Assembly: GCA_017640785.1 (NCBI GenBank)
Contig: JAEPPZ010000002.1
Location: forward strand, 95,748-159,747
Length of the DNA: 64,000 nucleotides
Source: Balneola sp.
Lineage (GTDB): Bacteria > Bacteroidota > Rhodothermia > Balneolales > Balneolaceae
Direction: 5' to 3'
The notes under the pieces were generated by a model, which searched no databases, had not been told where the DNA came from, and worked only from the letters and a program-made list of their open reading frames with translations. The translations under genes and the position numbers were made by a program. Of this stretch, positions 1,400-16,141 are shown piece by piece (within the stretch, counting starts at the first letter, position 1; each line of letters begins with the position of its first letter).

Positions 1400-1525
1400 A
1401 CAAAATAAGTACAAGGTTAATATTGACGCTTATTTTGAAACCTATATTTTGTATGCCCTTCCTATTGTATTTACTTTAATTAAAGTTATTTTAATCTTAT
1501 ATGCAAGTCATAGTTATACTTAGCG
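1397..1525 (-). promoter_or_regulatory. AraC-gene leader element, copy 1 (orphan)
   Basis: About 130 bp nearly identical to the sequences upstream of the AraC-like genes at 15421-15765 and 20135-20524. It contains the inverted repeat CAAAATAAG/CTTATTTTG. The second, overlapping inverted repeat (CATACAAAAT/ATTTTGTATG) is broken by one change here, the same change that destroys the ATG. It probably holds the promoter or operator that now drives the propeller gene. Confidence 0.6.
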
Positions 1526-1812
1526 TTAAACTATATCACGAATATATTTAAAACTTCTTGCTCTTCACCCTCGTTCCATACCTCCGGTGCGGAATGCCCC
1601 CGGAAACTCTGCTTCCATTAGTAAAAGCTATTTCATTTGTATAACGCCGAGCCTGAAGGCTCTACTAGTTTAAATCCTACAGTACTAAATTATTATTGGA
1701 AAACAACATCACTGTTTTAGTACATTTCAGGAGTTAAGCTACTAAACTAGGAAAATATTACCACCTTTACCTTTCTTTGTTTTTTTTAAAGATTGTACGG
1801 TTTTTAAATTAA
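1526..1812. repeat. Gene-free stretch containing structured repeat A, copy 1 (1568-1706)
   Basis: Repeat A begins CCCTCGTTCCATACCTCCGG and ends near GGAAAACAA. It contains short inverted repeats (ttccg/cggaa-like, GGAAACTCTGCTTCC, GAGCCTGAAGGCTC). Its closest copy is 15959-16096. The remaining sequence up to 1812 is AT-rich with no convincing gene. Confidence 0.75.
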
Positions 1813-2895
1813 TTACTCAGGTAGTTTAAATTGAAATAAATAATACCAGTTCGATGCTTTTATATTTTCCAAATCAGAGACATCCAAGCTACCCACCCAA
1901 AAAGATTTCTCACTCCTAGGATAATCCACAACGTACTTTGCAACTGCTTCATAACTTCTATCCTTGTTCCTTCTTAAGTAAATTATCCCATCATTATCAT
2001 TAATGATTAAGCTTCCATCATCTAAATATTTGAAATTATCCATAATGAATGCTCCACCTACACCGGCTTTATTATTAGGATCAGCTGGGTGAATTTTTAA
2101 TTCAACTAAATTACGGTTATCAAAATCAGAACTTTCAAATATCAGTGTTCTCTCTATTAAAAAATTGCTGTCAAATAACGAGATCCATGGCAAGTGATCT
2201 GATGAAGCTGCTATTTCGTTCTTATTATTCATATCAAAACTCACACTGTTAAATACCATTGGTTGCATACCATCCGGAATAATTTTGGGCATAACTTTGG
2301 CAATACTGTCCTGAGGAGAGGAGAGTTTTGCAATGGTAACCATTCCTGAAGTTTTAATTCCCTGATAGGTTACTTCATTGTATGCTATATATTCTTCATT
2401 AACACTGATATCTTCTACCATAAAAGAGGCCAATGTTTTTTCTAACTTAAAATCATGATTATAAATATTGATTCTGGCATTAGCCCGATCAGCAACAAAA
2501 ATGTTTGATGAGTTTTTTGCCATTGAAGAAACAGAGAGAACTTCACCCGGCCCCCTACCATTTGCCGCCACCGTTTTCGTGATTTGACCATCAAAATTTA
2601 TCTGAATAATGTTTTTGTCTGACTTCTCAAAAACATAAAATGCATCATCTGTGGTAATTGAATACATCATCCACCCAATAAGGCTGTTCATGTCTAGGTT
2701 TTCGGAATTGAAAATTAAATCCTCTTCGGATAACTCAATATGAACGGTGCTTAGACTGTCCAAATTGATGTACTGAACAGGGGCTAAGCGTATAAAGTTA
2801 TTCAAAACCTCAGATTCGGTTACAGGGTAATTCTCTTCATTCATTGCTTTACTGCAACCAATAATTAATAACAGTAAACATGTTGTCTTAACCAT
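1813..2895 (-). CDS. 6-bladed beta-propeller lipoprotein
   Basis: A 360-residue protein starting at the ATG 2893-2895. A longer open frame reaches 3030 but would overlap the precursor gene upstream, and only this start gives a signal peptide (MVKTTCLLLLIIGC, lipid Cys14). The motif NGRGPGEVLSV identifies the propeller family. It is transcribed directly after the six-cysteine precursor at 2954-3184, with a 58-bp gap containing an imperfect hairpin. It may be the dedicated partner of that peptide (receptor, immunity or maturation factor); this is inference from gene pairing only. Confidence 0.75.
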   Translation of the reverse strand: MVKTTCLLLLIIGCSKAMNEENYPVTESEVLNNFIRLAPVQYINLDSLSTVHIELSEEDLIFNSENLDMNSLIGWMMYSITTDDAFYVFEKSDKNIIQINFDGQITKTVAANGRGPGEVLSVSSMAKNSSNIFVADRANARINIYNHDFKLEKTLASFMVEDISVNEEYIAYNEVTYQGIKTSGMVTIAKLSSPQDSIAKVMPKIIPDGMQPMVFNSVSFDMNNKNEIAASSDHLPWISLFDSNFLIERTLIFESSDFDNRNLVELKIHPADPNNKAGVGGAFIMDNFKYLDDGSLIINDNDGIIYLRRNKDRSYEAVAKYVVDYPRSEKSFWVGSLDVSDLENIKASNWYYLFQFKLPE

Positions 2896-2953
2896 TCTTC
2901 CACGAAGAATTTTAAAAGAAGAGCAGGTTCTATCTACCCTTCTTATTTGATTT

Positions 2954-3184
2954 TTAGGACTCACCAACGCACCCTCCGCCACAGGCGCTTCCTGCCCAGT
3001 TTCCAGTTCCGCTGTATCCTGAGCCTGCATTACCGCATCTTACAGTCATTTCCCAATGATTATCATATTGATCAATTTCAACATGGCAATCATCTCCATA
3101 CTCGCATTCACATGTCCATGTTGGCATCAGCCCACCCTTTATATTTCTCATTTCTTCTCTACTTAATACATTTAAAAATTCCAT
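2954..3184 (-). CDS. Double-glycine leader peptide precursor, six-cysteine core
   Basis: A 76-residue precursor. Residues 1-18 are the leader MEFLNVLSREEMRNIKGG, ending in the GG site recognised by C39 peptidases. The 58-residue core is rich in Gly, Trp and acidic residues and has six Cys (two as CEC near the start, two near the end as CGGGC). An AGAGGA ribosome-binding sequence sits seven bases before the ATG. Export would use the C39 transporter at 6546-8735, and disulfide formation the VKOR-thioredoxin protein at 13703-15310. The core is not closely similar to the other cores. The mature activity is unknown. Confidence 0.8.
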   Translation of the reverse strand: MEFLNVLSREEMRNIKGGLMPTWTCECEYGDDCHVEIDQYDNHWEMTVRCGNAGSGYSGTGNWAGSACGGGCVGES

Positions 3185-3243
3185 AATAGAATCCTCTTTG
3201 ATTTAATTAATGTTTAATCTTGCGTGTTAAATAAGTTCTTTTG
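3185..3243 (-). promoter_or_regulatory. Conserved precursor 5' region with VKOR-gene tail relic
   Basis: The sequence upstream of this precursor is nearly identical to that upstream of the precursor at 13443-13661, including the AGAGGA ribosome-binding site. At 3226-3243 the minus strand reads CCAAAAGAACTTATTTAA (P-K-E-L-I-stop). This corresponds to the last codons of the VKOR gene (P-K-E-L-V-stop at 13703-13720), but here it is noncoding and directly follows the stop of the upstream propeller gene. Confidence 0.65.
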
Positions 3244-3244
3244 G

Positions 3245-4456
3245 TTACTCTCTTTCTTTAAAAACTATTTTGTATTTATTTATCCTATCTATTCCTTGAT
3301 CATATTTAAATTCGCGGGTATAGAAAAACCCGTTCTTAATTTCGAAAAAAGGCTGGCCAACAAAAGGACTTATGTCAGATCTTTTTCCCTGAAATGTAAA
3401 TGAACCAATCAAATCACCATTATCCTCATCAATAACATACCACTTGAAGGTATTATCACTATTTGTTATGGTTGAAACCCATAATCTTCCCTTATCATCG
3501 GCCTGAATCGTATTTAAAGCTGGCCATGTATACGGTACTCCCTGATCTTCAATAAATTCTTTTCTTTCTTTAAATATTTTAACCTTATCTAAATCAAGTT
3601 TGCTTTTATTGATTTCGTAATAAAATTCTTTAACTAACTCTCCTTTAGTATTATATTTTTTAATTCTGAAATCTTCGCTCCATGTAGAATACATGTCCCC
3701 ATTCTGATCGGTTGTGAATAAAGAAGTTCTGGTGAATGGAGCTGTGAAACCCCTATTTATCTTATCTCCTTTATTAAATATATACATAACGTACCTTTTT
3801 TGGTTTAAAATTTCCGGCGGTTCTATTACACCATCAGCAGAAATTTTATAGTATGCAGATTTGGTAAACATGTTGGGTTGAAAAAATAATAGCACTTCAA
3901 ATTTCAGCAATACTTCATGTTTATTAAGTGTGAATAGTTCTGTTCCCTTCATTAACCTAGTAAATTTATCCTCTCCTACAACTAATGATTTATCAAGTAA
4001 CTCATCTTTTATATGCTTGTAATCCATCATTGAATACAAGGCTATTTTTTGCAACCTATTATCTAGCACCCACAAAGTGTCATTAGAAATTGTCATTGAA
4101 GCAATTGCTTCAAATTCTCCAGGACCTCTTCCATAGCGCCCCAGTACAGCTTCTACAACACCGTTGGGGTTAAACACATAGATCCCAAGTTTACCCAGCC
4201 GTTGTACCGCTATTATCACATGGTCTCTATCATCAATAATGGTTTTGCTTAAAGATCCGTCTAAAAATACTTGTTCGTTAGATTCAAAAGAATTTTCTAA
4301 TATTAGTTCAACGGTATCAGCATTCGCAACTGACTGTGGGTCTAATTCTAATTGTGTTGTTTTTGAATCTGGTATAATTAACGGACTTTCCTCAGCTGAC
4401 TCTTTAGCGCAGTTCAAAAAAGTCAAACAGAGAATTATTGCTAATAATTTTAACAT
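3245..4456 (-). CDS. 6-bladed beta-propeller lipoprotein
   Basis: A 403-residue protein from the ATG at 4454-4456; an in-frame TTG at 4471 is a less likely start. Signal peptide MLKLLAIILCLTFLNC with lipid Cys16. The family motif YGRGPGEFEAI is present, and the C-terminal third has the shared block TWPALNTIQ...GRLWVSTI found in most propellers of this locus. It follows a damaged precursor gene (4521-4700) across a perfect 15-bp stem-loop. It is closest in appearance to the propellers at 10481-11689 and 12046-13290, whose precursors belong to the same CCxSC peptide subfamily. Confidence 0.8.
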   Translation of the reverse strand: MLKLLAIILCLTFLNCAKESAEESPLIIPDSKTTQLELDPQSVANADTVELILENSFESNEQVFLDGSLSKTIIDDRDHVIIAVQRLGKLGIYVFNPNGVVEAVLGRYGRGPGEFEAIASMTISNDTLWVLDNRLQKIALYSMMDYKHIKDELLDKSLVVGEDKFTRLMKGTELFTLNKHEVLLKFEVLLFFQPNMFTKSAYYKISADGVIEPPEILNQKRYVMYIFNKGDKINRGFTAPFTRTSLFTTDQNGDMYSTWSEDFRIKKYNTKGELVKEFYYEINKSKLDLDKVKIFKERKEFIEDQGVPYTWPALNTIQADDKGRLWVSTITNSDNTFKWYVIDEDNGDLIGSFTFQGKRSDISPFVGQPFFEIKNGFFYTREFKYDQGIDRINKYKIVFKERE

Positions 4457-4475
4457 AGATTTCAAGACCAATTTT

Positions 4476-4515
4476 AATAAGGAGATAATTTGTTGATTTA
4501 AATTATCTCCTTATT
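4476..4515 (-). promoter_or_regulatory. Intercistronic stem-loop (15-bp perfect stem)
   Basis: AATAAGGAGATAATT at 4476-4490 is the exact reverse complement of 4501-4515, with a 10-base loop. It lies between the damaged precursor and its propeller. It may attenuate transcription or stabilise the precursor mRNA. Confidence 0.75.
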
Positions 4516-4520
4516 TTTAA

Positions 4521-4700
4521 TTACGTTGACTGCCTAGAACCACAATCAGATCCTAAAAATCCGATTTGCCCACAGCTAGCGCAGCAATATCCAGAAGCTC
4601 CACCATTATTATACCAATTTTGTGCTTCTGATACGGTAAACCCACAATACCATTCTCCATTGTAGTAGACGCCACAAGTACCCCCTTTAATATTTCTCAT
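4521..4700 (-). pseudogene. Six-cysteine peptide precursor with leader cut off by repeat A
   Basis: The frame reads MRNIKGG followed by a 52-residue core with six Cys, including YCCASC. The core is clearly related to those at 11730-11975 and 13443-13661. The first 11 leader residues (MEFLNVLSREE) are missing: homology ends at 4705, exactly where repeat A begins, and an in-frame TAA is created one codon before the remaining Glu codon. The ATG of the surviving Met could still start translation, but without most of the leader helix needed for C39-exporter recognition and without the usual ribosome-binding site. Most likely a dead gene; the core itself is intact. Confidence 0.75.
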
Positions 4701-4706
4701 TTCTTA

Positions 4707-4808
4707 CCCTCGTTCCGTACCTCCGGTGCGGAATGCCCCCGGAAGCTCTGCTTCCATTGTCTTAGCTACTTCAGATGCATAACGCCGAGCCTGAAGCCTC
4801 TACTAGTA
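4707..4808. repeat. Structured repeat A, copy 2 (inserted in a precursor gene)
   Basis: CCCTCGTTCCGTACCTCCGG... through ...CTCTACTAGTATA, closely matching the copies at 1568, 15959, 17393 and 20847. It abuts the truncated leader of the 4521-4700 precursor. Confidence 0.8.
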
Positions 4809-4945
4809 TATATATTGAAAAAAGCATCACCACCGAGCTGTGCTCCAACAGTTAGTTCCATAGCGGAGCTACAGAACTATATTAATGAAATTAATCTTAC
4901 TGCATTTTCTAAGAAAGGTGGTCATACCTTTATTACAAGACAAGG
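4809..4945. repeat. Repeat-flanking sequence with a second short repeat
   Basis: The segment GTTAGTTCCATAGCGGAGCTACAGAACTA at about 4850-4878 also occurs, slightly changed, at about 21199-21227. No gene is apparent in the rest. Confidence 0.45.
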
Positions 4946-5149
4946 TTATTCAAAACACCATCCAATGCATCTCATATTTAATTCATGTACTTCAGAAAAA
5001 CAAGCACTTCTCCCATCAGTTGAAGGAGGAAAAGTTGAATCACATTCTTCGTAGTAACCACCATAAAGAGAAAGACAACCATCGGCACAAGCATTCCCCC
5101 CCTTTATATTTCTCATTTCTTCTCTACTTAATACATTTAAAAATTCCAT
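4946..5149 (-). CDS. Double-glycine leader peptide precursor, six-cysteine core
   Basis: A 67-residue precursor with leader MEFLNVLSREEMRNIKGG (identical to that of 2954-3184) and a 49-residue core with six Cys arranged as three pairs: C-x3-C near the start, two central, C-x3-C at the end. AGAGGA lies seven bases before the ATG. It is encoded just after the HlyD adaptor gene. Its presumed propeller partner is not adjacent: repeat A and a damaged precursor lie between. The core sequence is unlike the others. Confidence 0.8.
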   Translation of the reverse strand: MEFLNVLSREEMRNIKGGNACADGCLSLYGGYYEECDSTFPPSTDGRSACFSEVHELNMRCIGWCFE

Positions 5150-5196
5150 AATAGAATCCTCTTTGATTTATTTATGTTTTTACTAATTAGGTATTG

Positions 5197-6540
5197 CTAC
5201 CTAAGCTCTTTTGTTAAATTGTTATACACTCTTTTTAGTAAACGCATATCCTGTGTTATAATCTCTGCTTCGCCCTCCATCCCATTTGCAGGGGTTAATT
5301 TGTTTCCATAATTCGTTTTTAACCCCTCTGGAAACCTGACTTTTGCGAAAAGTTCACCTTCTCCAACCGGAAATTCTGATATATATTCAATTTCACCCAT
5401 CACTGAACCAAACTCATGGTACGGGTACCCGGAAAACCGAACCAACACCCTTTGTCCTTTTTCTATTTTGCCAAAAGAAGCCTGAGAAATTTTCATCACT
5501 CCAAAAAAATCAGTGTTAGAAGGAACAATGAAGAAAACGATCTGTCCGGATTGTAATGTTTGTTGTTCCTGAATTACCCCTGAGTAAACCAATGAGCCTG
5601 AAACCGGTGCTTTCAACAAGTACTGATGCTCCCAGTCATTGATCGAACTTTTAAGAGACTGTAATGATTGTTTGAATCCTGAACTTATCTCATCTTCTTG
5701 CCGAATAAGTTCCAACAATTCTTTCTGCTTCGAAATTTGGGATACTCTATTGTTGATAATTGAGGATTCAGTTTGTTGTAAAGGCATCTTCTTATTCGAA
5801 AATTCACTTTCTGCATCTAAGAACTCCAAACGAGCAATTAATCCCTTTTCCGCTAACTTTTTCTTTGCTTCAAATTCTTGCTCTGCCAATTTATAGTTAG
5901 ACTTTTGAATCTCTTGCTGCAATTCTAACTTTTTTAACAAGTCTTTTGTGTATTCCTGTTCTTGTTTTAATATTTCTTTCCTTTGATCAAAATAATTCCC
6001 CGGCAGATAAAGAATGTAATCTCTGAATACCTTATTAAACGCTTGCACAGTTGATTGTAACTCCCCTAACTGTTGAATATCAGATATCTGGATGCTTTCT
6101 ATTTTCGAAAACTCTTCGTTCATAATCCATTTTTGCAAGCTATCAATTTGATCGCTTAGTAATTCAACAGATGAATGACTTCCTGTGCTTTCCATCCATC
6201 CTAAAACTTCTCCTTCAGTTACTTCGCTCTTATTCTTCTTAAAAAGCTGAACGACTTTCCCATTGGTTTTACTTTCTACCGTTTTCGGTGCGTTTATAGC
6301 CGTTAGAGTTAGTTGAGATTTTATTACTTCGGGATATTTAACGAAAGAAGCTGCAATAAAAATTAACGCTAGTACTCCAAATAGAGCACCAATTCCTCCC
6401 CGTACCAACCAATGAGGCGGTCTGCCTATAATTTCCTGTACTTCCTCACTTCTTATATTAAGATCTAAATTTGAAACCTTCTTTTCTTTTCCGTTTTGAG
6501 GCTTCAGCATATCAGGAATTTTAGGTTTGAAGTCGTTCAT
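5197..6540 (-). CDS. HlyD-family membrane-fusion protein of the peptide exporter
   Basis: A 447-residue adaptor with a cytoplasmic N-terminus, one transmembrane helix near residues 48-68 (GIGALFGVLALIFIAASFV), a biotinyl-lipoyl-like segment (TNGKVVQLFKKNKSEVTEGEVLGW), a long coiled-coil hairpin (about residues 180-310) and a C-terminal beta-barrel (VLVRFSGYPYHEFGSVMGEI). It would link the C39 ABC exporter in the inner membrane to an outer-membrane channel; no TolC gene is in this locus. It starts five bases after the exporter stop, indicating a common transcript. Confidence 0.88.
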   Translation of the reverse strand: MNDFKPKIPDMLKPQNGKEKKVSNLDLNIRSEEVQEIIGRPPHWLVRGGIGALFGVLALIFIAASFVKYPEVIKSQLTLTAINAPKTVESKTNGKVVQLFKKNKSEVTEGEVLGWMESTGSHSSVELLSDQIDSLQKWIMNEEFSKIESIQISDIQQLGELQSTVQAFNKVFRDYILYLPGNYFDQRKEILKQEQEYTKDLLKKLELQQEIQKSNYKLAEQEFEAKKKLAEKGLIARLEFLDAESEFSNKKMPLQQTESSIINNRVSQISKQKELLELIRQEDEISSGFKQSLQSLKSSINDWEHQYLLKAPVSGSLVYSGVIQEQQTLQSGQIVFFIVPSNTDFFGVMKISQASFGKIEKGQRVLVRFSGYPYHEFGSVMGEIEYISEFPVGEGELFAKVRFPEGLKTNYGNKLTPANGMEGEAEIITQDMRLLKRVYNNLTKELR

Positions 6541-6545
6541 AATAA

Positions 6546-8735
6546 TTAATTCCCAAGTTCTAATTGATTACGAACCAATTCAAAATAGGCTCCTTTTGCA
6601 TAAGTAAGCTCTTGATGTGTGCCTTCTTCAATAATCTTTCCTTCATCCAGAACTACAATATTATCCGCCTTTTTGACGGTACTCAACCGATGAGCAACAA
6701 CCACTACTGTACGGTTTTCAAAGAATTCATGTAGGTTTTCCATGATGACCTTCTCGTTATTAGCATCTAATGCATTGGTAGCTTCATCGAAGAAAATGTA
6801 TTCGGGATTTTTATACACTGCTCTGGCTATTAACATTCTTTGGCGTTGCCCCTGACTGATTCCATTACCTTCTGGACCAATTTTAGTATTAAACCCTAGA
6901 GGTAAAGAATCAACAAACTCATGAATGTTTGCTACTTTTACCGCATGTTTAAGTTTTACCATATCAGGCTGCTCCTCACCAACTGCGATATTCCGAGCGA
7001 TATTATCAGAAAAGATAAATCCATCCTGCATTACCACTCCGCAGTTTTTCCTCCAGATTCTGTGACTTATTAAATCAAGATTAGTACTTCCAATACGAAT
7101 ATCTCCGTTATCTAATGGGTAGAATTTCAGCAAAAGTTTCAGAAGAGTAGTTTTCCCACTTCCGCTCATTCCAACGATAGCAGTAGTTTTCCCCTCCGGA
7201 ATAGATAAATGGATATCGTTCAAAACCGGCTCATTTCCTGCTCCCGGATAGGTAAAGCTCAGGTTGGAAACCTCGATACTTTTCATAGCAGGAAGCTCAT
7301 AAACAAATGACTTGTTCTCCGGTTCTTCATCTTCTTGTTTATGAATTTCGTTCAATCTTTCGAGACTCAAATGGGCATCCTGAGTAGATTGTACAAATCC
7401 AATGATTTGTTGTATGGGACTATTTAACTGCCCAATAATATATTGAATAGCCATCATTGCCCCCAAAGTAAGTTGCCCGTTTACTACAGCAACCGCAGCT
7501 AAAAAGGTAATCCCAATATTCTTCCCTTCATTGATGAAAAAAGCCCCGGCCTGCTGATATTGATTCAAAGACAAGTTCTTGACTCTGTAATGAAACAGTT
7601 TTGCCTGAAACCGTTCCCATTCCCATCGCTTTTGTTTTTCTGAATTGGTGAGCTTTATTTCCTGCATTCCCTGAATTAGCTGAATCACATTGCTCTGATC
7701 TCCGGAGGAGATTCCAAAACGTTTATGATCTAATTCTGCTCGCTTTTTAAGAAAAAGTAACACCCAACCTATATATAAGATACTACTCACTAAAAACACG
7801 GTAAAAATAAGCATGTTGTAATAAGCCAATACAACCGCAAATACCAACAGGTTTACAAAAGAGAATAACGTGCTGAGCGTTTGACTGGTTAAGAAATTCT
7901 GGATTCGTACATGGTCTTCCATCCGTTGCATAATGTCCCCCGTCATCTTGGCGTCGAAATACGGCATTGGGAGTTTCATAAGCTTAATCAAAAAATCGGA
8001 AAGAATAGAGATATTGATACGGGTACTCATGTGGAGTAAGATCCAGGATCGTATAAATTCAACTCCGGTTCGCCCTACAAACAACATGATTTGAGCAATA
8101 AGAATGATATAAATAAAATTAAGATCCCGGGTGTTGATCCCAATATCTACTATAGATTGCGTTAGAAATGGAAAAATAAGCTGTAAGATACTTCCAACCC
8201 CAAGCCCCAAAGCAAGCTGTCCGAGCAAACTTTTGTACGGTTTTAGGTATTCGAATAACCGGGTAAAATCTAAACGATCCCTCTGCTCATGCCTTTGTTC
8301 AAAAAACTTGGGAGTAGTATATAATAACAGTACAATACCGTTATCCTGACTATCTATTTTGTTGTTTAACCAGTTTTTTAAAAACTCTTTCTTAGAATAA
8401 ACCACTTTGCCGGCAGCCGGGTCTGCAATATAAACCTTGTCGCCTTTCACTTTATACAACACTACAAAATGCTGTTGATTCCAGAATACTATACAAGGTA
8501 AAGGAGCTTCTTTAAACAGCTGTTCAGGAGTAAGTTTAACGCCTACGGTTCTAAACCCGATATTTTCTGCAGCCTCACTAATTCCTAACAAAGAAACGCC
8601 TTCTCTGTTAATCCCGCTTTTCTTACGTAAGGTCTCTAATGTATACTTTCTGCCATAATGCTTTGCGACCATTCTCAAACAGGTAGGACCACAATCCATC
8701 CGGTCGTGTTGATGGTATAGTCTAAATGGTTTCAT
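6546..8735 (-). CDS. C39-peptidase-containing ABC exporter (peptide leader cleavage and secretion)
   Basis: A 729-residue complete bacteriocin-type exporter. The N-terminal C39 peptidase has the expected catalytic triad Cys15 (MDCGPTC), His89 and Asp105 (ADPAAGK), so it should cleave after the GG of the leaders encoded nearby. It is followed by a six-helix ABC membrane domain (about 165-450) and an ATPase with Walker A GMSGSGKTT (522-530), signature ISQGQ (626-630), Walker B IFFDEA and H-loop His682. All active residues are present. It is the only intact exporter here; a 5' fragment of a second lies at 16095-16140. Confidence 0.93.
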   Translation of the reverse strand: MKPFRLYHQHDRMDCGPTCLRMVAKHYGRKYTLETLRKKSGINREGVSLLGISEAAENIGFRTVGVKLTPEQLFKEAPLPCIVFWNQQHFVVLYKVKGDKVYIADPAAGKVVYSKKEFLKNWLNNKIDSQDNGIVLLLYTTPKFFEQRHEQRDRLDFTRLFEYLKPYKSLLGQLALGLGVGSILQLIFPFLTQSIVDIGINTRDLNFIYIILIAQIMLFVGRTGVEFIRSWILLHMSTRINISILSDFLIKLMKLPMPYFDAKMTGDIMQRMEDHVRIQNFLTSQTLSTLFSFVNLLVFAVVLAYYNMLIFTVFLVSSILYIGWVLLFLKKRAELDHKRFGISSGDQSNVIQLIQGMQEIKLTNSEKQKRWEWERFQAKLFHYRVKNLSLNQYQQAGAFFINEGKNIGITFLAAVAVVNGQLTLGAMMAIQYIIGQLNSPIQQIIGFVQSTQDAHLSLERLNEIHKQEDEEPENKSFVYELPAMKSIEVSNLSFTYPGAGNEPVLNDIHLSIPEGKTTAIVGMSGSGKTTLLKLLLKFYPLDNGDIRIGSTNLDLISHRIWRKNCGVVMQDGFIFSDNIARNIAVGEEQPDMVKLKHAVKVANIHEFVDSLPLGFNTKIGPEGNGISQGQRQRMLIARAVYKNPEYIFFDEATNALDANNEKVIMENLHEFFENRTVVVVAHRLSTVKKADNIVVLDEGKIIEEGTHQELTYAKGAYFELVRNQLELGN

Positions 8736-8763
8736 TTTAGTTATAATATCTATTCTTTAGGAT

Positions 8764-9927
8764 CTAGTTCTGTATCCACTTTAACTCATATGAAATAATG
8801 GTAGGCACTCTAGTATCCAAAGAAGAAGCAGCTACATAAGCTTTGTTATTCTTTACTGTTCGGATCACAGAGTGTTTAGACAAGAGAAATTTTGCAATCT
8901 GATCTCCATCATTTCCAAGGATCCACCATTCGTAATTCTTCTCATCAGGAACTATTGTAGCCAACCAAAGTCGATCTTCATCATCAGTAAAGAAGTGCGC
9001 TATTGCTGGGAATGTTTTAGGTAATTTATTACCTAATATTCTTTTAGTATCTGATACAAAACCTAAATTTTTATGAAATTCCGGAAAATCATCATCATTT
9101 GATACTTTTACGTTATTAAATGAATAATGAAAGCCTTTAATAAATTCACCTTCAGAATTATATTTCTTGAAAGCAATCTCACCAGTCCAAGCAAAATAAA
9201 TCTCATTCTTATCAGAAATAGTAAAAAAAGTTGTTCGATCAAATGGGATTGGAGGATAAGAAGTGCCTTTATTGTTAACAATAATAAAGTCACTTACCAG
9301 ATTAGAAGTATGAAAGGAAGGTTTTACTAGTATTCCAGTTCTTGTTAAAAAAAAATATTCTACAAAATTTTCTGTTACAACAGAATTTTTATTCTTTTTT
9401 GTACCACGTAAACCAATTACAATTTTACCATCCTCAAGAATACCAAAGTCTCCCAGACCGATTAGTCCATTGGTTGAAGGTATGCTTATCTCGTTGATTA
9501 AATCATGAGTTTTTATATCGAAGACAGAAATTCTACCTAAACTAGCATCATATACGTATATACTGTCGTTTCTTATTTTTAAATTATGAATTGTTTGAAA
9601 TTCTCCAGGACCTCTTCCATTCTGTCCAATTGTTTTTAAATATCTACCGTCTTTTTGATATACATGAACTCCTTTATTATTCTCTAAGTATAATCGATCA
9701 TATTTATCAACTGCTATTTTAGATATTCTTTTAAACTGAATTTCAATCTTCTCTTCGATTTCGAAATTTTTGATTAGCTCAATTCTTTTTACAACCTCTT
9801 TGTCTTTTAGGTATTGAAAGTCTTCATTTTGGTAGAATAGTTTTTCCGATTGATTTTTTTTGCTTTCATTACAACTACATAAAGAGATTAAACATAAAAT
9901 AAAGAATAACAGCTTATTTGAATCCAT
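8764..9927 (-). CDS. 6-bladed beta-propeller lipoprotein
   Basis: A 387-residue protein with signal peptide and lipid Cys19 (ISLCSC). NGRGPGEFQTI gives the family motif, and TFPAIAHFFTDDEDRLWLATI corresponds to the conserved C-terminal block of the other propellers. It follows the twin precursors 10211-10423 and 9989-10204, separated from the latter by a perfect 12-bp stem-loop, and precedes the exporter gene by 28 bp. Its role with the twin peptides is inferred only from pairing. Confidence 0.8.
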   Translation of the reverse strand: MDSNKLLFFILCLISLCSCNESKKNQSEKLFYQNEDFQYLKDKEVVKRIELIKNFEIEEKIEIQFKRISKIAVDKYDRLYLENNKGVHVYQKDGRYLKTIGQNGRGPGEFQTIHNLKIRNDSIYVYDASLGRISVFDIKTHDLINEISIPSTNGLIGLGDFGILEDGKIVIGLRGTKKNKNSVVTENFVEYFFLTRTGILVKPSFHTSNLVSDFIIVNNKGTSYPPIPFDRTTFFTISDKNEIYFAWTGEIAFKKYNSEGEFIKGFHYSFNNVKVSNDDDFPEFHKNLGFVSDTKRILGNKLPKTFPAIAHFFTDDEDRLWLATIVPDEKNYEWWILGNDGDQIAKFLLSKHSVIRTVKNNKAYVAASSLDTRVPTIISYELKWIQN

Positions 9928-9950
9928 TTAATTTTATTTTATAGACTAAT

Positions 9951-9977
9951 AAGCAAACTCTAGATTAGAGTTTGCTT
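9951..9977 (-). promoter_or_regulatory. Intercistronic stem-loop (12-bp perfect stem)
   Basis: AAGCAAACTCTA (9951-9962) and its exact reverse complement (9966-9977) flank a three-base loop. It lies between the precursor at 9989 and the propeller at 9927. A short run of U follows only loosely, so attenuation or mRNA stabilisation is more likely than full termination. Confidence 0.75.
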
Positions 9978-9988
9978 ATAATTAAGGT

Positions 9989-10204
9989 TTATTGATTTTG
10001 TCCAGGTAGACTTGCCGCTTCACAATTAATAGCTTTACTATCTTCATATTGAACCTCACAACATTGATTTGATTCAATATCTTCAGAGCAAAGAACATTA
10101 CCCTCAGAATGGCCTAATGGATCAACACACTCACATCTTGTCCAGCCACTTCCGCCTTTTATCATCTTCATTTCATTTCTTGTGAGATAACTTAAGTATT
10201 CCAT
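9989..10204 (-). CDS. Double-glycine leader peptide precursor, six-cysteine core (twin 2)
   Basis: A 71-residue precursor with a diverged leader MEYLSYLTRNEMKMIKGG and a 53-residue core with six Cys in the pattern C-x-C ... C ... CC ... C, ending CEAASLPGQNQ. It is a tandem duplicate of the gene at 10211-10423, which starts upstream with only a six-base gap. The two share the Cys spacing and an identical C-terminal tail but differ in most other core residues, suggesting two related peptides acting together or diverging under selection. Confidence 0.8.
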   Translation of the reverse strand: MEYLSYLTRNEMKMIKGGSGWTRCECVDPLGHSEGNVLCSEDIESNQCCEVQYEDSKAINCEAASLPGQNQ

Positions 10205-10210
10205 CGGGAT

Positions 10211-10423
10211 TTATTGATTTTGACCAGGTAGACTTGCAGCTTCGCAATTTGCTGCAAAAGTTTCCGAATGATGTACTTGGCAACATTGATTCTTATCCAT
10301 TTCGTCAGAGCAAGTTACATCTCCTTGAGATTCACCTTGTATATTGTAACAAGTACAAGTTTCCCAGGCTCCTCCTTTTACGTTTTTCATTTCTTTACGT
10401 GATAACAGATTTAAAAATTCCAT
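10211..10423 (-). CDS. Double-glycine leader peptide precursor, six-cysteine core (twin 1)
   Basis: A 70-residue precursor with leader MEFLNLLSRKEMKNVKGG and a 52-residue core with six Cys (C-x-C ... C ... CC ... C) and the tail CEAASLPGQNQ shared with the next gene. AGAGGA seven bases before the ATG matches the other precursors. It is the first of the tandem pair, and the two stop/start regions nearly touch, so they are probably translated from one message. Confidence 0.82.
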   Translation of the reverse strand: MEFLNLLSRKEMKNVKGGAWETCTCYNIQGESQGDVTCSDEMDKNQCCQVHHSETFAANCEAASLPGQNQ

Positions 10424-10480
10424 ATTAGAATCCTCTTTGATTGATTAATGTTAATCTTGTTTATTCAACAAGCTCTTTGA

Positions 10481-11689
10481 TTACACCCTTATCTTTAAAT
10501 TAATTTTATACTTAATAATTCGATCAATACCTTGATTAAAATCAAATTCATGTTCATAGAAATAACCATTTTTAATCTTGATTAAAGGTTTTCTATATAC
10601 TTTTCTGTTGTTTCTATACCCCGGCTTTGAAAATGTTGCGAGCAATTCACCCTTTAAATCAGATATCCACCAATCATAAGTAGAATCGGAATCTGTTATT
10701 GTAGAAATCCATACTTTATCATCGCTACTAACTTCTATGGTGTGAATGGCAGGCCATGTATCAGGCAACCCATGTTTAATAATTAGATTTTGCTCTTCTC
10801 TACTAAAATTAAGCTCACTTAGGGATAGCGAACTTTTAGTATAAGGATAGTAGAATGAATATTTATAGTTACCCATTTCATCATGAGCTTTGATTAGTAA
10901 ATCTTCATTCCACGATGTAAATATTAAACCTTTTTGTGATAAGGCCACCAAACTATTTCTTAAAAAAGGAGGTTTAAGTGGTAAATTTAACTGTGTTTCC
11001 GGGAGGTACAGAAAATAATTTTCAAGATCTAAAACTTTGTTTTCAATTGTACTCCCATCCTTACTTAGTTTATAATAAAAGATTCTTCTGTAATCATTAG
11101 AACCAATATTACTTTCATATTTAAGTAGTATTACATCATCTTTTAATACTGATATTTCACGTGCTCTCATTACACTTGACATACCACCTAAATGATTGGT
11201 GCTATTTAACTTATTTTCATGTATTAATGAATAATCAATCGTTGAATAAACAACGACTTTTTGAAGTCTGGTGTCAAGTACATAAATCTTGTCATTGAAA
11301 ACATCAATTGATCCAATGGACTGGAATTCACCAGGTCCTCTACCTAACCTTCCAATTTTCGTTTTATAGTTTCCCAAACTATCATAAACTTTTATATCAA
11401 TTTTGCTCGGGTTTTGAATAACAACAAATATGTTATTCTTGTCATCAACATCAAATAGGTTTATATAACCTTCGAAATATACTTCTTCGTTACTTTTGAT
11501 AGTTAACACCCTTTCTAAAATGACTGTATCTAAAGACGAATTGTCAAGTAAAGGGTATACCTGTAGATTTTCTAAGGAGTCAATAGAAGCAGGAATTATG
11601 ATTTGTTGCACTTGATTATTTTTACTGCTATCACAGCTATTCAGAAGAACAAATATTAGTATTAGTAAGGTCAATATATTTTTGATCAT
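10481..11689 (-). CDS. 6-bladed beta-propeller lipoprotein
   Basis: A 402-residue protein from the ATG at 11687-11689. The frame stays open to 11935, but that extension overlaps a precursor gene and lacks protein-like features, while this start gives a clean signal peptide with lipid Cys19. Motifs LGRGPGEFQSI and TWPAIHTIEVSSDDKVWISTI match the family. It follows the precursor 11730-11975 across a small hairpin (11705-11720). Confidence 0.8.
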   Translation of the reverse strand: MIKNILTLLILIFVLLNSCDSSKNNQVQQIIIPASIDSLENLQVYPLLDNSSLDTVILERVLTIKSNEEVYFEGYINLFDVDDKNNIFVVIQNPSKIDIKVYDSLGNYKTKIGRLGRGPGEFQSIGSIDVFNDKIYVLDTRLQKVVVYSTIDYSLIHENKLNSTNHLGGMSSVMRAREISVLKDDVILLKYESNIGSNDYRRIFYYKLSKDGSTIENKVLDLENYFLYLPETQLNLPLKPPFLRNSLVALSQKGLIFTSWNEDLLIKAHDEMGNYKYSFYYPYTKSSLSLSELNFSREEQNLIIKHGLPDTWPAIHTIEVSSDDKVWISTITDSDSTYDWWISDLKGELLATFSKPGYRNNRKVYRKPLIKIKNGYFYEHEFDFNQGIDRIIKYKINLKIRV

Positions 11690-11704
11690 AAAAGCTAAAA
11701 TACA

Positions 11705-11720
11705 GGCTCCTAATGGAGCC
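11705..11720 (-). promoter_or_regulatory. Intercistronic stem-loop (6-bp GC-rich stem)
   Basis: GGCTCC and GGAGCC around a four-base loop, directly after the precursor stop and before the propeller ATG; followed on the minus strand by TGTATTTT. Confidence 0.6.
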
Positions 11721-11729
11721 CATTGATAT

Positions 11730-11975
11730 TTAAGTATAACACATACCCCCAGGTGAGTCGCCGCAACTTTCACAGCAGTAACCAGAAACATATTGACCAT
11801 CGGAATTTGTATAACTCGAATTGTATGAGTCCTGAGCAGTCGACACGCTTGTGCAACTTGACGACCAACCCGCAAAGGAACCATCTGCATTCCTCCATGC
11901 GACCCTACATACACCCATGCTTCCACCTTTAACATTCTTCATTTCTTCTCTACTTAATACATTTAAAAATTCCAT
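11730..11975 (-). CDS. Double-glycine leader peptide precursor, six-cysteine core (CCxSC subfamily)
   Basis: An 81-residue precursor, the longest here. Leader MEFLNVLSREEMKNVKGG, then a 63-residue Ser/Gly/Tyr-rich core with six Cys: SMGVC at the start, GWSSSC, GYCCESC and a final MCYT. The core aligns with those at 13443-13661 (SMGVC, GWSSC, GYCCASC, PCYS) and 4521-4700, so these three form one subfamily with variable loops between fixed cysteines. A conserved AGAGGA-type 5' region is present with one base change. Confidence 0.82.
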   Translation of the reverse strand: MEFLNVLSREEMKNVKGGSMGVCRVAWRNADGSFAGWSSSCTSVSTAQDSYNSSYTNSDGQYVSGYCCESCGDSPGGMCYT

Positions 11976-12045
11976 AACAGAATCCTCTATGATTTAATTA
12001 ATGTTTAATCTTGTTTTTGAAATGGAACAAGCAAACCATTCTTGC

Positions 12046-13290
12046 TTATTCGACAAGTTCTTTTGAACGCTCCTCAGATATGAAGTTTATTTTGTATTTA
12101 ACTATTCTATCAATCCCTTCAACGTAATCGTATTCTCTGTTGTAAAAATAGCCGTTTTTTATGATGACTATATCAGTTTTTGCAAACACCTCTTGGTTAG
12201 CTCTTATACCGGAAAAATTAAAACTTGCCTTTAATTTTTCATCTTCACCTATAATGTACCATTTAAATGTGCTATCACTTTCAGTAATCGTTGCCACCCA
12301 TAATTTCCCAAGATCGTCCACTATCATATTATGTAGAGCTGGCCATGTTTCAGGATAACCAACATCCTTTATGATTTTCATTCTACCTTTTGAAATATCC
12401 AGTGACTCAAGATCCAACTTACTTTTTTCTATAGAAAAACCTATTACTCCTTTATAAACACCATCTATATTATATTTTTCAATTTGGAAATCATCAGTCC
12501 AGGCTACATAAATAATACCTTGATTAGAAACGGTAATGAGTGATTGCCTGTTAAAAGCTGGGGTAAATCCCCACCTAACACCTGTTCTATCTGCTCTTGT
12601 AGGTAAATAAAATTTATATCTATCTGCTTCCACTATATATTCAGAGTTTAACTGCCCATCTTTGCTAATACTATAAATTCTTTTCTTTGTGAATCTATTT
12701 AAATCATATAGGCTCTTTACTTCTGTTCCAAGCAATACCTCATCACCATACTTCGAACTATATAACTCCATTGCTTTCATCGTCTGAGAAAACTCATCTG
12801 TTCTATCTGTACTATCTTTCCTAATTGTCATGTCACCAATTAAACTCAAATTATGGGTTGAGAAGATACTTATTCTTTGTTGCCGGCTATCTAATACAAA
12901 TAGTTTTTCTCCTGAAATAGACAGCGATGATATACTTTCAAACTCACCAGGTCCTCGACCAAACCTACCCATTTTTTTTAAATACTTACCTTCTGATGAA
13001 AATACATATATAGCGCTTATCCCTGGAGCTACAGCACTAATAAATACTTTTCCTTCATTATCAACATCAGCTCCACCAATAATTCCTTCTAATAAAACAT
13101 CATTGTTACTTTCATAAATTGTTTCCTTAACAAAAACAACTGAATCAAGAGCTATATTTGAGTTTGTATTAATTTTAAAACTATTTTCTTTTAGGTTTTT
13201 GTCTTGTATACCTGCCTTTTCATTACACGAAAAGATACACACCAAACCTATCGTTAGAATAATATTTTTTGCAAAGCCTAATTTGCACAT
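12046..13290 (-). CDS. 6-bladed beta-propeller lipoprotein
   Basis: A 414-residue protein with signal peptide and lipid Cys22 (CIFSC). FGRGPGEFESI and TWPALHNMIVDDLGKLWVATI are the family motifs. The C-terminus KELVE overlaps a short sequence resembling the VKOR gene tail. It follows the precursor 13443-13661 across a 10-bp perfect stem-loop and precedes the precursor 11730-11975, illustrating the repeating precursor-propeller unit. Confidence 0.8.
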   Translation of the reverse strand: MCKLGFAKNIILTIGLVCIFSCNEKAGIQDKNLKENSFKINTNSNIALDSVVFVKETIYESNNDVLLEGIIGGADVDNEGKVFISAVAPGISAIYVFSSEGKYLKKMGRFGRGPGEFESISSLSISGEKLFVLDSRQQRISIFSTHNLSLIGDMTIRKDSTDRTDEFSQTMKAMELYSSKYGDEVLLGTEVKSLYDLNRFTKKRIYSISKDGQLNSEYIVEADRYKFYLPTRADRTGVRWGFTPAFNRQSLITVSNQGIIYVAWTDDFQIEKYNIDGVYKGVIGFSIEKSKLDLESLDISKGRMKIIKDVGYPETWPALHNMIVDDLGKLWVATITESDSTFKWYIIGEDEKLKASFNFSGIRANQEVFAKTDIVIIKNGYFYNREYDYVEGIDRIVKYKINFISEERSKELVE

Positions 13291-13399
13291 GAATTTTAGC
13301 GCCTAATTTGATGAATTTTTCGAACTAAAATCTATCTGATTATTAATACAAAACAATACAGTTATTTTTTGCATTTATGCCTCGCAATTAATTAAATGT

Positions 13400-13433
13400 G
13401 AAAAGCAGTAAGAGTTTAATATCACTGCTTTTC
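13400..13433 (-). promoter_or_regulatory. Intercistronic stem-loop (10-bp perfect stem)
   Basis: GAAAAGCAGT (13400-13409) and ACTGCTTTTC (13424-13433) pair exactly. It lies just after the precursor stop and upstream of the propeller start at 13290. Confidence 0.72.
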
Positions 13434-13442
13434 ATCTTAATA

Positions 13443-13661
13443 TTATGAGTAACAGGGTTCAGCGTTAGAAAAATTACCTGTACCACAGCTAGCACAACAA
13501 TATCCGGTTATTTCACTAAAACCGTTATAGAAGCTCTCTGCTGCCGCAGGCGAAAAACCACATGATGACCAGCCGTTTTCACCATATATTCTACACACAC
13601 CCATGCTTCCCCCTTTAACATTCCTCATTTCTTCTCTACTTAATACATTTAAAAATTCCAT
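13443..13661 (-). CDS. Double-glycine leader peptide precursor, six-cysteine core (CCxSC subfamily)
   Basis: A 72-residue precursor: leader MEFLNVLSREEMRNVKGG and a 54-residue core with six Cys (SMGVC, GWSSC, GYCCASC, EPCYS). It is the first precursor after the VKOR-thioredoxin gene, whose stop lies about 40 bp upstream. This VKOR-precursor junction appears to be the source of the copied 5' region found before the precursor at 2954-3184. Confidence 0.83.
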   Translation of the reverse strand: MEFLNVLSREEMRNVKGGSMGVCRIYGENGWSSCGFSPAAAESFYNGFSEITGYCCASCGTGNFSNAEPCYS

Positions 13662-13681
13662 AATAGAATCCTCTTTGATTT
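13662..13681 (-). promoter_or_regulatory. Conserved ribosome-binding region of the precursor genes
   Basis: The minus strand reads AAATCAAAGAGGATTCTATT before the ATG; AGAGGA is seven bases from the start. The same block, with at most a few changes, precedes the precursors at 3184, 5149, 10423 and 11975. Confidence 0.7.
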
Positions 13682-13702
13682 AATTAATATTAATCTTGCG
13701 TG

Positions 13703-15310
13703 TTAAACAAGTTCTTTTGGCTTGTTCAGTGCTTTAATTTCTTCATCGAATATTGGAATCATTCCAGTGAGTAATGAGCTCAAATCACTAATTCGATACT
13801 GAGACGGTAACTCATAACCATTCACAAAAAAAGTAGGTGTCTTAACAATCTTATGTTTTGCAATCCATTGATAGTGCGATACTACTGCACTGTCACTTAC
13901 ATCAAGCGATTCAGTATATATGCTTTCAAATTCTTCTGTGGACATATACTCATACCAATCCTTGATTAACTTTCTTGTTTTGTTGGATTCATCCTGAGTT
14001 CCCGATATAAACTGACTCCAGTAGTTAATCAAGAATGAGCTTACAGGAATATTATGGACCATATTTCCACTCATCAAAAACTTAAAAGACACATTAACCT
14101 GTTCAGGATATTGATCTACCAATTTAAGTACTTGTTTCAACCCAGTTTTACAAGGATGGCAATTTAAATTTGCTACCATCAATAGGTTTATGGGAGCATT
14201 AGGATTCCCAATTACCATTCTATATTCATTTCTTGAATAATCAACCTTGTTTCCCTGAAAAAGAAGATGTGTAAAAACTTCAGGAGCGTTTTTTACACGC
14301 ATTGCTGCAATTTCGGCATTCACTGCTTCACTCATACTCTCTATTTTACCTTTTATAAGTAACACTAAAGCAACAAGCGCAGAAAACAGAAACAGTGAAA
14401 AAAAGAAGGGCATAACTTCAATTTCCGATATGGAAAAAACTCCATCTACATATAAAAAGCCTAACAATCCAGCTTGTACAACAAGTACAGCATTCACCAA
14501 CATACACAACCTGCACCATGTTTTTGCTTTTGCTGCCTGATAAAAAATGGAATAGAATATAATGGGAATAGACAATGCACTGGCTGCCAACAGTACCCAA
14601 AAGTATGGTATAGGGTTACTTAGCACCGGAATTAATAATCCGGTAATGATTAATTGAAAAGCAAAATAACTAATTACAGCTTCTGAGAGACTAAAAAAAC
14701 TGAATATCTGTGCACCTTCCGATCGTAACACTTTATTGCAATTAACCCTTGTACTAGTATTACAAAAAGACTCCACCGGTTTATAGATAATACCCAAATC
14801 CTTGGCTATCAGAATATACCCAATGCTTGCTCCCAAGATGCTTGTAGTAAGAAGTATCAGGTTGGTCCAAGAGAATGAAACTAAGGTGTGCATCGTAAAA
14901 GCAGCAATTATGGATATTGCAAGTGCTAATGCTGCATTTCTTGTAATCCGCTCTTTGTTATATTGTTTGTTATGGTCGCTGTCTTTTAATTCCTCAACCG
15001 ACTCTGCTTTTAATACAATGCCTTTCCATTCTTTTAAATCGATATGATCTTTAGACAGATCTTTTAGGTCTTTAATTAATACCAAACCATCTTTCGCAGT
15101 ATCCAAATGTAGCAAAAAAGGAAACTCAACTTTAGAAAGATGTTTTTCTTCAATTTTACCAATCTGGCAAGGTACCCCTAATTGTTCGAGCAAATCTGAA
15201 ACACTAAGTAGCGATGGGTAGTCAGGATGAGATAAAATTACTTTTTTGCAATAGGCCTCGGAAATGGGAATATCGAGGTGTTTGAGGTAATCAACTATAA
15301 CTTGTTCCAT
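13703..15310 (-). CDS. C39-like / VKOR / thioredoxin fusion, putative disulfide oxidase for the exported peptides
   Basis: A 535-residue three-part protein. Residues 1-105 resemble an inactive C39-like domain (DYPSLLSVSDLLEQLGV). Residues 120-320 form a vitamin-K-epoxide-reductase membrane domain with the loop cysteines Cys183 and Cys191 and the active CxxC Cys266/Cys269 (TWCRLC). Residues 345-535 are a thioredoxin/DsbA-like domain with Cys384-x2-Cys387 (CHPC) and the cis-Pro segment KTPTFFVNG. It would make disulfides with quinone as electron acceptor. Heading a gene set in which every peptide has six Cys, it is the natural candidate for their oxidation. All redox cysteines are present. Confidence 0.88.
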   Translation of the reverse strand: MEQVIVDYLKHLDIPISEAYCKKVILSHPDYPSLLSVSDLLEQLGVPCQIGKIEEKHLSKVEFPFLLHLDTAKDGLVLIKDLKDLSKDHIDLKEWKGIVLKAESVEELKDSDHNKQYNKERITRNAALALAISIIAAFTMHTLVSFSWTNLILLTTSILGASIGYILIAKDLGIIYKPVESFCNTSTRVNCNKVLRSEGAQIFSFFSLSEAVISYFAFQLIITGLLIPVLSNPIPYFWVLLAASALSIPIIFYSIFYQAAKAKTWCRLCMLVNAVLVVQAGLLGFLYVDGVFSISEIEVMPFFFSLFLFSALVALVLLIKGKIESMSEAVNAEIAAMRVKNAPEVFTHLLFQGNKVDYSRNEYRMVIGNPNAPINLLMVANLNCHPCKTGLKQVLKLVDQYPEQVNVSFKFLMSGNMVHNIPVSSFLINYWSQFISGTQDESNKTRKLIKDWYEYMSTEEFESIYTESLDVSDSAVVSHYQWIAKHKIVKTPTFFVNGYELPSQYRISDLSSLLTGMIPIFDEEIKALNKPKELV

Positions 15311-15382
15311 ACAACAGGGTTTGAGTAATTAGCAACCTGACTGAGTATAGTTTTAAGGAGTTACTAAAACCAATGAAAACAG

Positions 15383-15458
15383 TATCCTTTTTCGTTATCC
15401 TTTTTCGTTATCCTTTTTCGTTATCCTTTTTCGTTATCCTTTTTCGTTATCCTTTTTC
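15383..15458. repeat. 13-bp tandem repeat, about six copies
   Basis: The unit TTATCCTTTTTCG is repeated head to tail: four full units plus a 12-base partial at each end, with no mismatches. It overlaps the last codons and stop of the AraC-like gene and lies in the region before the VKOR gene. Because 13 is not a multiple of three, gain or loss of a unit changes the reading frame at the gene end. Too short and lacking spacers to be a CRISPR array. Confidence 0.92.
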
Positions 15459-15765
15459 TGAGCTCAGTAGGTGATTTTCCTGTATGCCTTTTAAGAAATT
15501 TGTACAATGCCTTTTCATGTGCAAACCCAAACTCCAAACAAATGCAGTAGTTTTTCTCATCAGGATGTTTATTTATATATTCAATAACCTTCTCAGTTTT
15601 AATATCAATAAGCACATCACTGGGTCTTACACCATATTTTTTTCTGAATTCCCAAGAGAATTTAGAAGGCTTCTTAAATCCCATTTTATAAGCCCATTCA
15701 GTGACATTCCCAATAGTTGAGATATTCTCTTTGAGCAACGAATGAGCCTTTTCTATTTGTTCCAT
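15421..15765 (-). CDS. Small stand-alone AraC-type DNA-binding protein
   Basis: 114 residues made essentially of an AraC-like helix-turn-helix pair: GNVTEWAYKMGFKKPSKFSWEFRKKYGVRPSDVL (first) and CLEFGFAHEKALYKFLKRHTGKSPTELRK (second). There is no sensor domain. It is paralogous to the protein at 20135-20524 and shares its 130-bp upstream region. It is the first gene before the VKOR/peptide locus and probably regulates it and itself. The C-terminus runs into the 13-bp repeats. Confidence 0.78.
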   Translation of the reverse strand: MEQIEKAHSLLKENISTIGNVTEWAYKMGFKKPSKFSWEFRKKYGVRPSDVLIDIKTEKVIEYINKHPDEKNYCICLEFGFAHEKALYKFLKRHTGKSPTELRKRITKKDNEKG

Positions 15766-15895
15766 ACAAAATAAGTTTAAACGTTATTGTTAGTACTTAT
15801 TTTGAAACCTAAATTTTGTATGTCTTTCCTATTGTATTTACTTCAATTAAAGTTATTTTAATCTTATATGCAAGTGATAGTTATACTTAGCTGAT
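15763..15895 (-). promoter_or_regulatory. AraC-gene leader element, copy 2
   Basis: Two perfect 10-bp inverted repeats share one arm region. ATTTTGTATG (15813-15822 on plus) pairs with CATACAAAAT at 15763-15772, which covers the start codon. ACTTATTTTG (15795-15804) pairs with CAAAATAAGT at 15767-15776. Since the two proximal arms overlap, only one pairing can form at a time. It could be a dual operator or an RNA switch controlling the start. Confidence 0.65.
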
Positions 15896-16094
15896 AGAGT
15901 TATGTTGTGACCAAGCATACTTCTCTTAAATCTATGCTCACTTTCTCTTTCTTCTTAGCCTCGTTCCGTACCTCCGGTGCGGAATGCCCCCGGAAGCTCT
16001 GCTTCCATTAGTAATAGCTATTTCATGGGCATAACGCCGAGCCTGAAGGCTCTACTAGTTTAAATCCTACAGTGCTACATTATTATTGGAAAAC
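15896..16094. repeat. Gene-free stretch containing structured repeat A, copy 3 (15959-16096)
   Basis: CCTCGTTCCGTACCTCCGG... to ...TTATTATTGGAAAACAA, nearly identical over its length to the copy at 1568-1706. The right end coincides with the break in the exporter fragment 16095-16140. Nothing else is recognisable between 15896 and 15958. Confidence 0.78.
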
Positions 16095-16140
16095 AAGTGG
16101 GTCCACAGTCCATTTGGTTGTGTTGATGATAATGCGGAAA
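16095..16140 (-). pseudogene. Fragment of a second C39 ABC exporter (5' end)
   Basis: One frame of the minus strand reads FPHYHQHNQMDCGPTC, matching residues 4-19 of the intact exporter (FRLYHQHDRMDCGPTC) including the catalytic Cys. The start codon is lost at the propeller stop and the remainder of the gene is replaced by repeat A. It shows that the 16-20 kb set once had its own exporter gene. Confidence 0.75.
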
Positions 16141-16141
16141 A

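Follow-up and report, generated by a model that had tools for sequence, protein, structure and literature searches.

A Balneola cluster of GG-leader cysteine-rich peptides with a C39-like-VKOR-DsbA fusion oxidase, a candidate leader-guided disulfide installer

Gene content of the locus

We analysed a stretch of 64,000 nucleotides of Balneola sp. (the window; contig JAEPPZ010000002.1, positions 95,748 to 159,747, from assembly GCA_017640785.1 of 18 contigs and 3.39 Mb). It contained a cluster encoding cysteine-rich peptides with a double-glycine (GG) leader, together with an oxidase in which a C39-like domain, a VKOR domain and a DsbA-like domain are fused and which is a candidate for the enzyme that installs their disulfide bonds. 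The cluster lies entirely on the - strand, and the precursors are named here by their lower coordinate.

In the order of transcription, the first gene encodes the oxidase (13703-15310, read from 15310), identified by Pfam matches (VKOR and Thioredoxin_4), by hhalign and by structure matches. It is followed by precursor 13443 (13443-13661) with a propeller lipoprotein of the DUF5128 type (12046-13290), by precursor 11730 (11730-11975) with its propeller (10481-11689), and by the tandem precursors 10211 (10211-10423) and 9989 (9989-10204) with one propeller (8764-9927). Then come the exporter, a peptidase-containing ATP-binding cassette (ABC) transporter (PCAT) of 729 aa (6546-8735) with C39, ABC membrane and ATPase domains and the catalytic Cys-His-Asp present, and a HlyD-type periplasmic adaptor (5197-6540). 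Precursors 4946 (4946-5149) and 4521 (4521-4700) share one propeller (3245-4471), paired with 4521, which is nearer, or with 4946. The cluster is closed by precursor 2954 (2954-3184) with its propeller (1813-2895) and by one further propeller-like lipoprotein without adjoining precursor (317-1345), which had no Pfam match and served as seed for the propeller profile. The starts of the propellers of 11730 and 2954 were moved to the lipoprotein signals at 11689 and 2895, respectively.

The original prediction, made from the sequence alone, had named seven GG-leader precursors with six Cys after the GG in each, one C39 exporter with a Cys-His-Asp triad, one HlyD adaptor and one VKOR-thioredoxin fusion. 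The seven open reading frames (ORFs) were confirmed, and so were the other three genes through domain matches. It overlooked that propeller lipoproteins are encoded between the precursors and that the fusion starts with a C39-like domain.

Leaders and core families

The leader of the precursors (MEFLNVLSREEMRNVKGG) was nearly identical at the DNA level (mean 85% over 54 nt in the five intact precursors); the cores had diverged, to 36% in a crude score of their alignment. Against the NCBIfam GG-leader model TIGR04149 (cut-off 25), two precursors scored 24.6-24.8 bits and were above the cut-off in the genome search, and the others fell below it.

The cores are 48-63 aa long with six Cys each, and they fall into four families: A (13443, 11730 and 4521), B (10211 and 9989), C (2954) and D (4946). 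The cores had been described as different and unrelated, which was not borne out, as the members of A share one scaffold and the two of B another. The Cys pattern of family A, C..C..CC-x-SC..C, was also found in several Balneolaceae, Cyclobacteriaceae and other Bacteroidota; in its alignment the first Cys, the last Cys and the CC-x-SC block between them are in register in every sequence, and the second Cys moves a few columns. The Cys number differs between species in family C (6 to 8) and in a further family, F (10 to 11). Precursor 4521 has a truncated leader and is probably a recent pseudogene. Its six Cys, which had been taken as a sign of selection, are indeed present, but as evidence they are weak because of this probable recent decay.

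Cysteine number and parity

Through the leader profile, 95 unique Cys-containing cores were collected from Balneolaceae loci and from those of other Bacteroidota. Six Cys were found in 49 cores, eight in 18, four in 15, ten in five, two in one, and an odd number in seven (1, 1, 3, 7, 11, 11 and 13). The core with three Cys and one of those with a single Cys came from short, apparently truncated ORFs, and the counts of 11, 11 and 13 all came from one locus of a metagenome-assembled genome. An even number was thus present in 88/95 leader-type cores vs 106/297 leaderless small ORFs (binomial p 6e-19, a value that takes the cores as unrelated). Single-linkage clustering at E 0.01 joined most cores via their shared Cys, for which reason the families were assigned by eye for the labels of the propeller tree. 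One cluster held 62 cores; with equal cluster weights, 29.9/32 were even.

The idea of a fixed six-Cys rule was rejected, as relatives vary from 4 to 13 Cys. The odd or variable numbers (4, 7, 8, 10, 11 and 13) that the original prediction had itself named as refuting were found among relatives, and its strict form, exactly six as a mark of selection for disulfides, fails. Six Cys in all four families of the cluster is an event of about 7%, given a probability of six of about 0.5 per family. The non-random property is the even parity. Disulfides in the peptides are well supported by the sequence evidence; a fixed number of six is not.

Domains of the oxidase

The oxidase is composed of a C39-like domain (residues 1-105; 14996-15310), a transmembrane (TM) helix that we call TM0 (about 122-144), a VKOR domain (148-325) and a DsbA-like domain (345-520). 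The VKOR domain carries the loop pair C183 and C191 and the motif C266xxC269, and the thioredoxin-fold partner carries C384xxC387. The claim that all redox cysteines are present in the fusion holds, and these six are invariant across 13 relatives. The VKOR and DsbA-like parts matched the structures 4nv2, ScsC and BdbD.

The first 105 or so residues are not annotated by Pfam. By hhalign, this N-domain matched the C39 domain of the cluster's own exporter (probability 98.7, E 4.5e-16); unrelated and shuffled control profiles gave a probability below 1. A structure predicted from the domain alone (mean predicted local distance difference test score, pLDDT, of 72) matched best the C39 or C39-like domains of ComA, PCAT1, LahT and HlyB (Z up to 11.8), the LahT-leader complex 6mpz being among the matches. 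In a Foldseek search with the whole oxidase, the DsbA-like domain filled the list and no C39 folds were listed, and with the N-domain alone the C39 folds were listed. Querying the Protein Data Bank with a single sequence, covering part of the oxidase, yielded no useful match.

Residue 1 of the N-domain model aligned to residue 22 of PCAT1 and to residue 18 of ComA, positions which we take to be just past the catalytic Cys. Since the domain has the C39 fold and starts after the catalytic position, it is a catalytically dead protease with the GG-leader-binding fold, and by homology and its modelled fold it may bind leaders itself.

Linkage of oxidase and exporter

We surveyed 92 genomes of the family Balneolaceae, including Fodinibius and Rhodohalobacter. 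The oxidase and the exporter were found together in 13 genomes, the exporter only in one, the oxidase only in one and neither in 77 (Fisher p 9e-14, with genomes counted as independent of phylogeny). The genome with the oxidase only (G005) has a decayed locus (L041), which comprises fragments of oxidase and exporter, a precursor of 35 aa and three propellers that are still intact. VKOR fusions with nearby GG-leader precursors were also found throughout many Bacteroidota families. In the genome of the cluster itself, the fusion is the only VKOR and no DsbB was found.

Two loci (L116 and L117) of a complete Balneolaceae genome, G091, held four precursors with 6 to 8 Cys and paired propellers, with no VKOR match and without this exporter.

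Topology of the oxidase and proposed mechanism

Six TM helices were predicted in the fusion. Because the Synechococcus VKOR 4nv2 aligned to residues 147-294 only, TM0 is an extra helix and both soluble domains are expected on the same side of the membrane. Two TM-like segments preceded the loop Cys in 53/57 fusions, and one did so in 41/44 other VKORs. The density of Lys and Arg was higher on the redox side than on the opposite side in 52/53 fusions vs 4/40 VKORs without a detected C39 domain (p 8e-13, with fusions taken as independent of kinship); one of the four exceptions (L165) was apparently a fusion trimmed by ORF calling. By the positive-inside rule, this inverted bias places the redox side of the fusion in the cytoplasm. 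The C39 domain of PCAT exporters cuts the leader off on the cytoplasmic side, so a leader-binding fold would make sense only there.

Three short stand-alone VKORs (L189, L190 and L162; 139-161 aa) also had the inverted charge pattern, without a C39-like domain.

We therefore propose, with slightly more confidence than doubt, that the precursors are oxidised in the cytoplasm while bound by their leaders and are then cleaved and exported, with a propeller cognate to each core. The conserved GG leader would dock on the dead C39 domain of the oxidase, and the DsbA-like domain would oxidise pairs of core Cys on the cytoplasmic side. From VKOR chemistry, the VKOR part would then re-oxidise the DsbA-like domain and pass the electrons to the membrane quinone. 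The disulfide-bonded precursor would be handed to the C39 exporter, cut after the GG, and its core exported via HlyD and an outer-membrane channel presumably encoded elsewhere. With leaders nearly identical, many diverging cores could be handled by a single oxidase and a single exporter. The fusion itself, judged from sequence and model, stands an even chance of being a leader-guided, cytoplasm-facing disulfide installer, present in many Bacteroidota families, with its VKOR inverted by one extra TM helix; the chance that it is a new kind of maturase of ribosomally synthesized and post-translationally modified peptides (RiPPs) is put at about even too. The bonds, the activity, the topology and the binding in this scheme are predicted. 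The order cleave, export, oxidise, which had been suggested for this locus, is disfavoured by the six predicted TM helices, by the dead C39 domain on the side of the DsbA-like domain and by the cytoplasmic charges.

Several points weigh against oxidation in the cytoplasm by a leader-guided enzyme. The cytoplasm is a reducing environment, exceptions to the positive-inside rule exist, the fusions are homologous and therefore do not count as independent cases, and the dead C39 domain could serve another role. Even parity was as frequent where no VKOR was linked to the locus (23/25 cores) as where one was (65/70), and therefore parity alone does not identify this oxidase and was rejected as proof of this particular VKOR; many genomes whose loci have no linked VKOR carry a VKOR elsewhere. 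The precursors of G091 have even Cys numbers, yet no VKOR was found for them and this exporter was not among their genes. Three VKOR-fusion loci (L109, L110 and L127) carry arrays of short Cys-free GG-leader peptides (cores such as DDPVIDPNNQNEPKKTGGNGNP), which fit neither a cytoplasmic nor a periplasmic model of oxidation and are unexplained if the fusion is a disulfide installer only. In addition, TlpA-like thioredoxin proteins follow several precursors in other Bacteroidota (L122, 12080-13174; L053, 12505-13947; L119, 1591-3114), a hint of further redox steps beyond the cytoplasm.

The strongest alternative is the canonical orientation, in which the VKOR and DsbA-like domains are periplasmic, the peptides are oxidised after cleavage and export, and a periplasmic C39-like domain serves some other purpose, for instance docking to the exporter or binding peptides. 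To our knowledge, all VKOR-thioredoxin enzymes of known structure work outside the cytoplasm, and the TlpA-like thioredoxins beside related precursors would suit such an arrangement. It is also in line with the analogous thiol oxidoreductase of the bacteroidetocin loci, which is assumed to make disulfides (Coyne et al. 2019, PMC6671954). However, the leader-binding fold would then sit where leaders are absent, the fusion has one TM helix more, and 52/53 fusions have the opposite of the charge bias that marks a periplasmic redox site in ordinary VKORs, although this is an indirect test. We consider the canonical orientation rather unlikely, though it is the alternative to be taken most seriously.

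Propeller lipoproteins

In Balneolaceae, 37/43 precursors were followed by a DUF5128-type propeller on the same strand, and most propellers had a lipoprotein-like N-terminus. The similarity of cores between genomes was compared with that of their propellers by automatic scores; the correlation was small (0.06, with a mean of -0.08 in permuted data), but 0/2000 within-genome permutations were as high. On the propeller tree, with core-family labels assigned by eye, the labels changed six times, which is the minimum for seven labels; shuffles within genome gave a mean of 12.2, and 0/500 were as low. Each peptide thus has an adjoining and co-segregating gene, as in toxin-immunity pairs, and propeller clades that track core families mark a cognate pair. 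In other Bacteroidota the slot of the propeller was filled by other proteins, TlpA-like thioredoxins among them.

In the decayed locus of G005 the propellers are intact, and the precursor, the oxidase and the exporter are truncated. A second such case may be L073 of Fodinibius salsisoli, where six propeller lipoproteins were found beside 36 residues that match the N-terminus of the oxidase and lie where the retrieved sequence ends; this cluster may have lost the capacity for biosynthesis and kept its propellers. Because propellers were retained in decayed loci (L041 and possibly L073), a role in immunity is preferred to one in biosynthesis. The propellers are most likely cognate immunity proteins, failing that receptors, and the peptides are probably narrow-spectrum bacteriocin-like products, as far as sequence can tell.

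The peptides could instead be signals, with the propellers as their cognate receptors, since one-to-one co-segregation suits any cognate pair. Orphan propellers, such as those of L073 and the DUF5128 propeller upstream of the oxidase (16142-17302, - strand, without adjoining precursor), could be eavesdropping receptors. Against this, many parallel diverging pairs per locus resemble toxin-immunity arrays, as does the keeping of propellers while precursors decay in L041, and we regard signalling as doubtful.

Other fates of the core cysteines

The even and high Cys numbers could also belong to a metallophore or a metal-cluster peptide whose thiols the oxidase only protects or regenerates, and the CC and CxC pairs of some cores could bind soft metals; we consider this very improbable, as the precursors are strictly linked to an oxidase rather than a reductase and the Cys spacing is conserved within families and different between them.

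The least probable alternative, close to dismissal, is a thioether or other covalent modification, as in lanthipeptides or sactipeptides, which would draw on the match of the leader to TIGR04149, named 'rSAM-modified RiPP', and on LanC-like genes beside two related exporters. No SPASM radical-SAM and no LanC were found in the genome, and no LanM or LanB among the ORFs of the cluster in the window (LanB was not searched genome-wide), so the statement that the locus encodes no radical-SAM or lanthionine maturase was upheld. The nearest radical-SAM match, about 13 kb away on the left flank, was rejected as a maturase, as its sequence resembles that of a MiaB-type tRNA-modifying enzyme. The LanC-like proteins (L030, 14031-15131; L033, 16127-17251) lie next to glycosyltransferase-like genes; they were rejected as thioether enzymes since they have no zinc-ligand (CHG) motif and almost no Cys. 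The preference for disulfides over thioethers is supported by the parity, the Cys conserved in core family A among distant Bacteroidota, the co-occurrence of VKOR and exporter and the absence of thioether enzymes.

Comparison with known systems

The closest known system is that of the bacteroidetocins, class IIf bacteriocins of Bacteroidetes, compared here by description. In these, too, one locus combines Cys-rich GG-leader peptides with a C39 ABC exporter and a thiol oxidoreductase; deletion of the oxidoreductase attenuates toxin activity, and the natural peptides migrate as if disulfide-bonded (PMC6671954). Their locus encodes one 42-aa peptide, typically with four Cys, and has a gene of its own for a 5-TM protein; an immunity gene was not found (PMC6671954). 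In contrast, the cluster here has several 6-Cys peptides, the C39-like-VKOR-DsbA fusion, HlyD and a propeller lipoprotein paired with each core. No separate multi-TM gene was found in 317-17302, the membrane part being fused into the oxidase.

The fusion resembles VKOR-thioredoxin oxidases such as Synechococcus VKOR (4nv2) in its VKOR bundle, loop Cys pair, CxxC and fused thioredoxin-fold domain, but it adds the N-terminal C39-like domain, the extra TM helix and inverted loop charges. Its N-domain has the fold of PCAT/AMS transporters and of the C39-like domain of HlyB, but is without the catalytic Cys and fused to an oxidase rather than to an ABC transporter. The leader type is that of TIGR04149 and other GG-leader RiPP precursors of Bacteroidota, whereas here the cores are rich in Cys, in even numbers, and no radical-SAM maturase is present. 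Disulfide-bonded class II bacteriocins and microcins with C39 transporters share GG leader, C39 export and disulfides; the present system differs from them in its many core types per locus and in a dedicated oxidase that carries a leader-type domain itself. Within the literature library searched, no relevant paper tied VKOR to GG leaders, C39, bacteriocins or RiPPs.

If the proposal is true, bacteria use a dedicated leader-guided oxidase to form disulfides of secreted peptides within the reducing cytoplasm. The fusion would then help to mine genomes for the large group of disulfide-rich peptides currently labelled radical-SAM products and be a candidate tool for making disulfides in the cytoplasm, and the loci would offer ready peptide-propeller pairs for specificity tests.

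Neighbouring genes

Directly upstream of the oxidase, an AraC-type helix-turn-helix protein (PF12833) without sensor domain is encoded at 15421-15765 (- strand), which may be a regulator of the cluster. A gene of the S26 signal-peptidase type was found close to the cluster at 17622-18173 (- strand).

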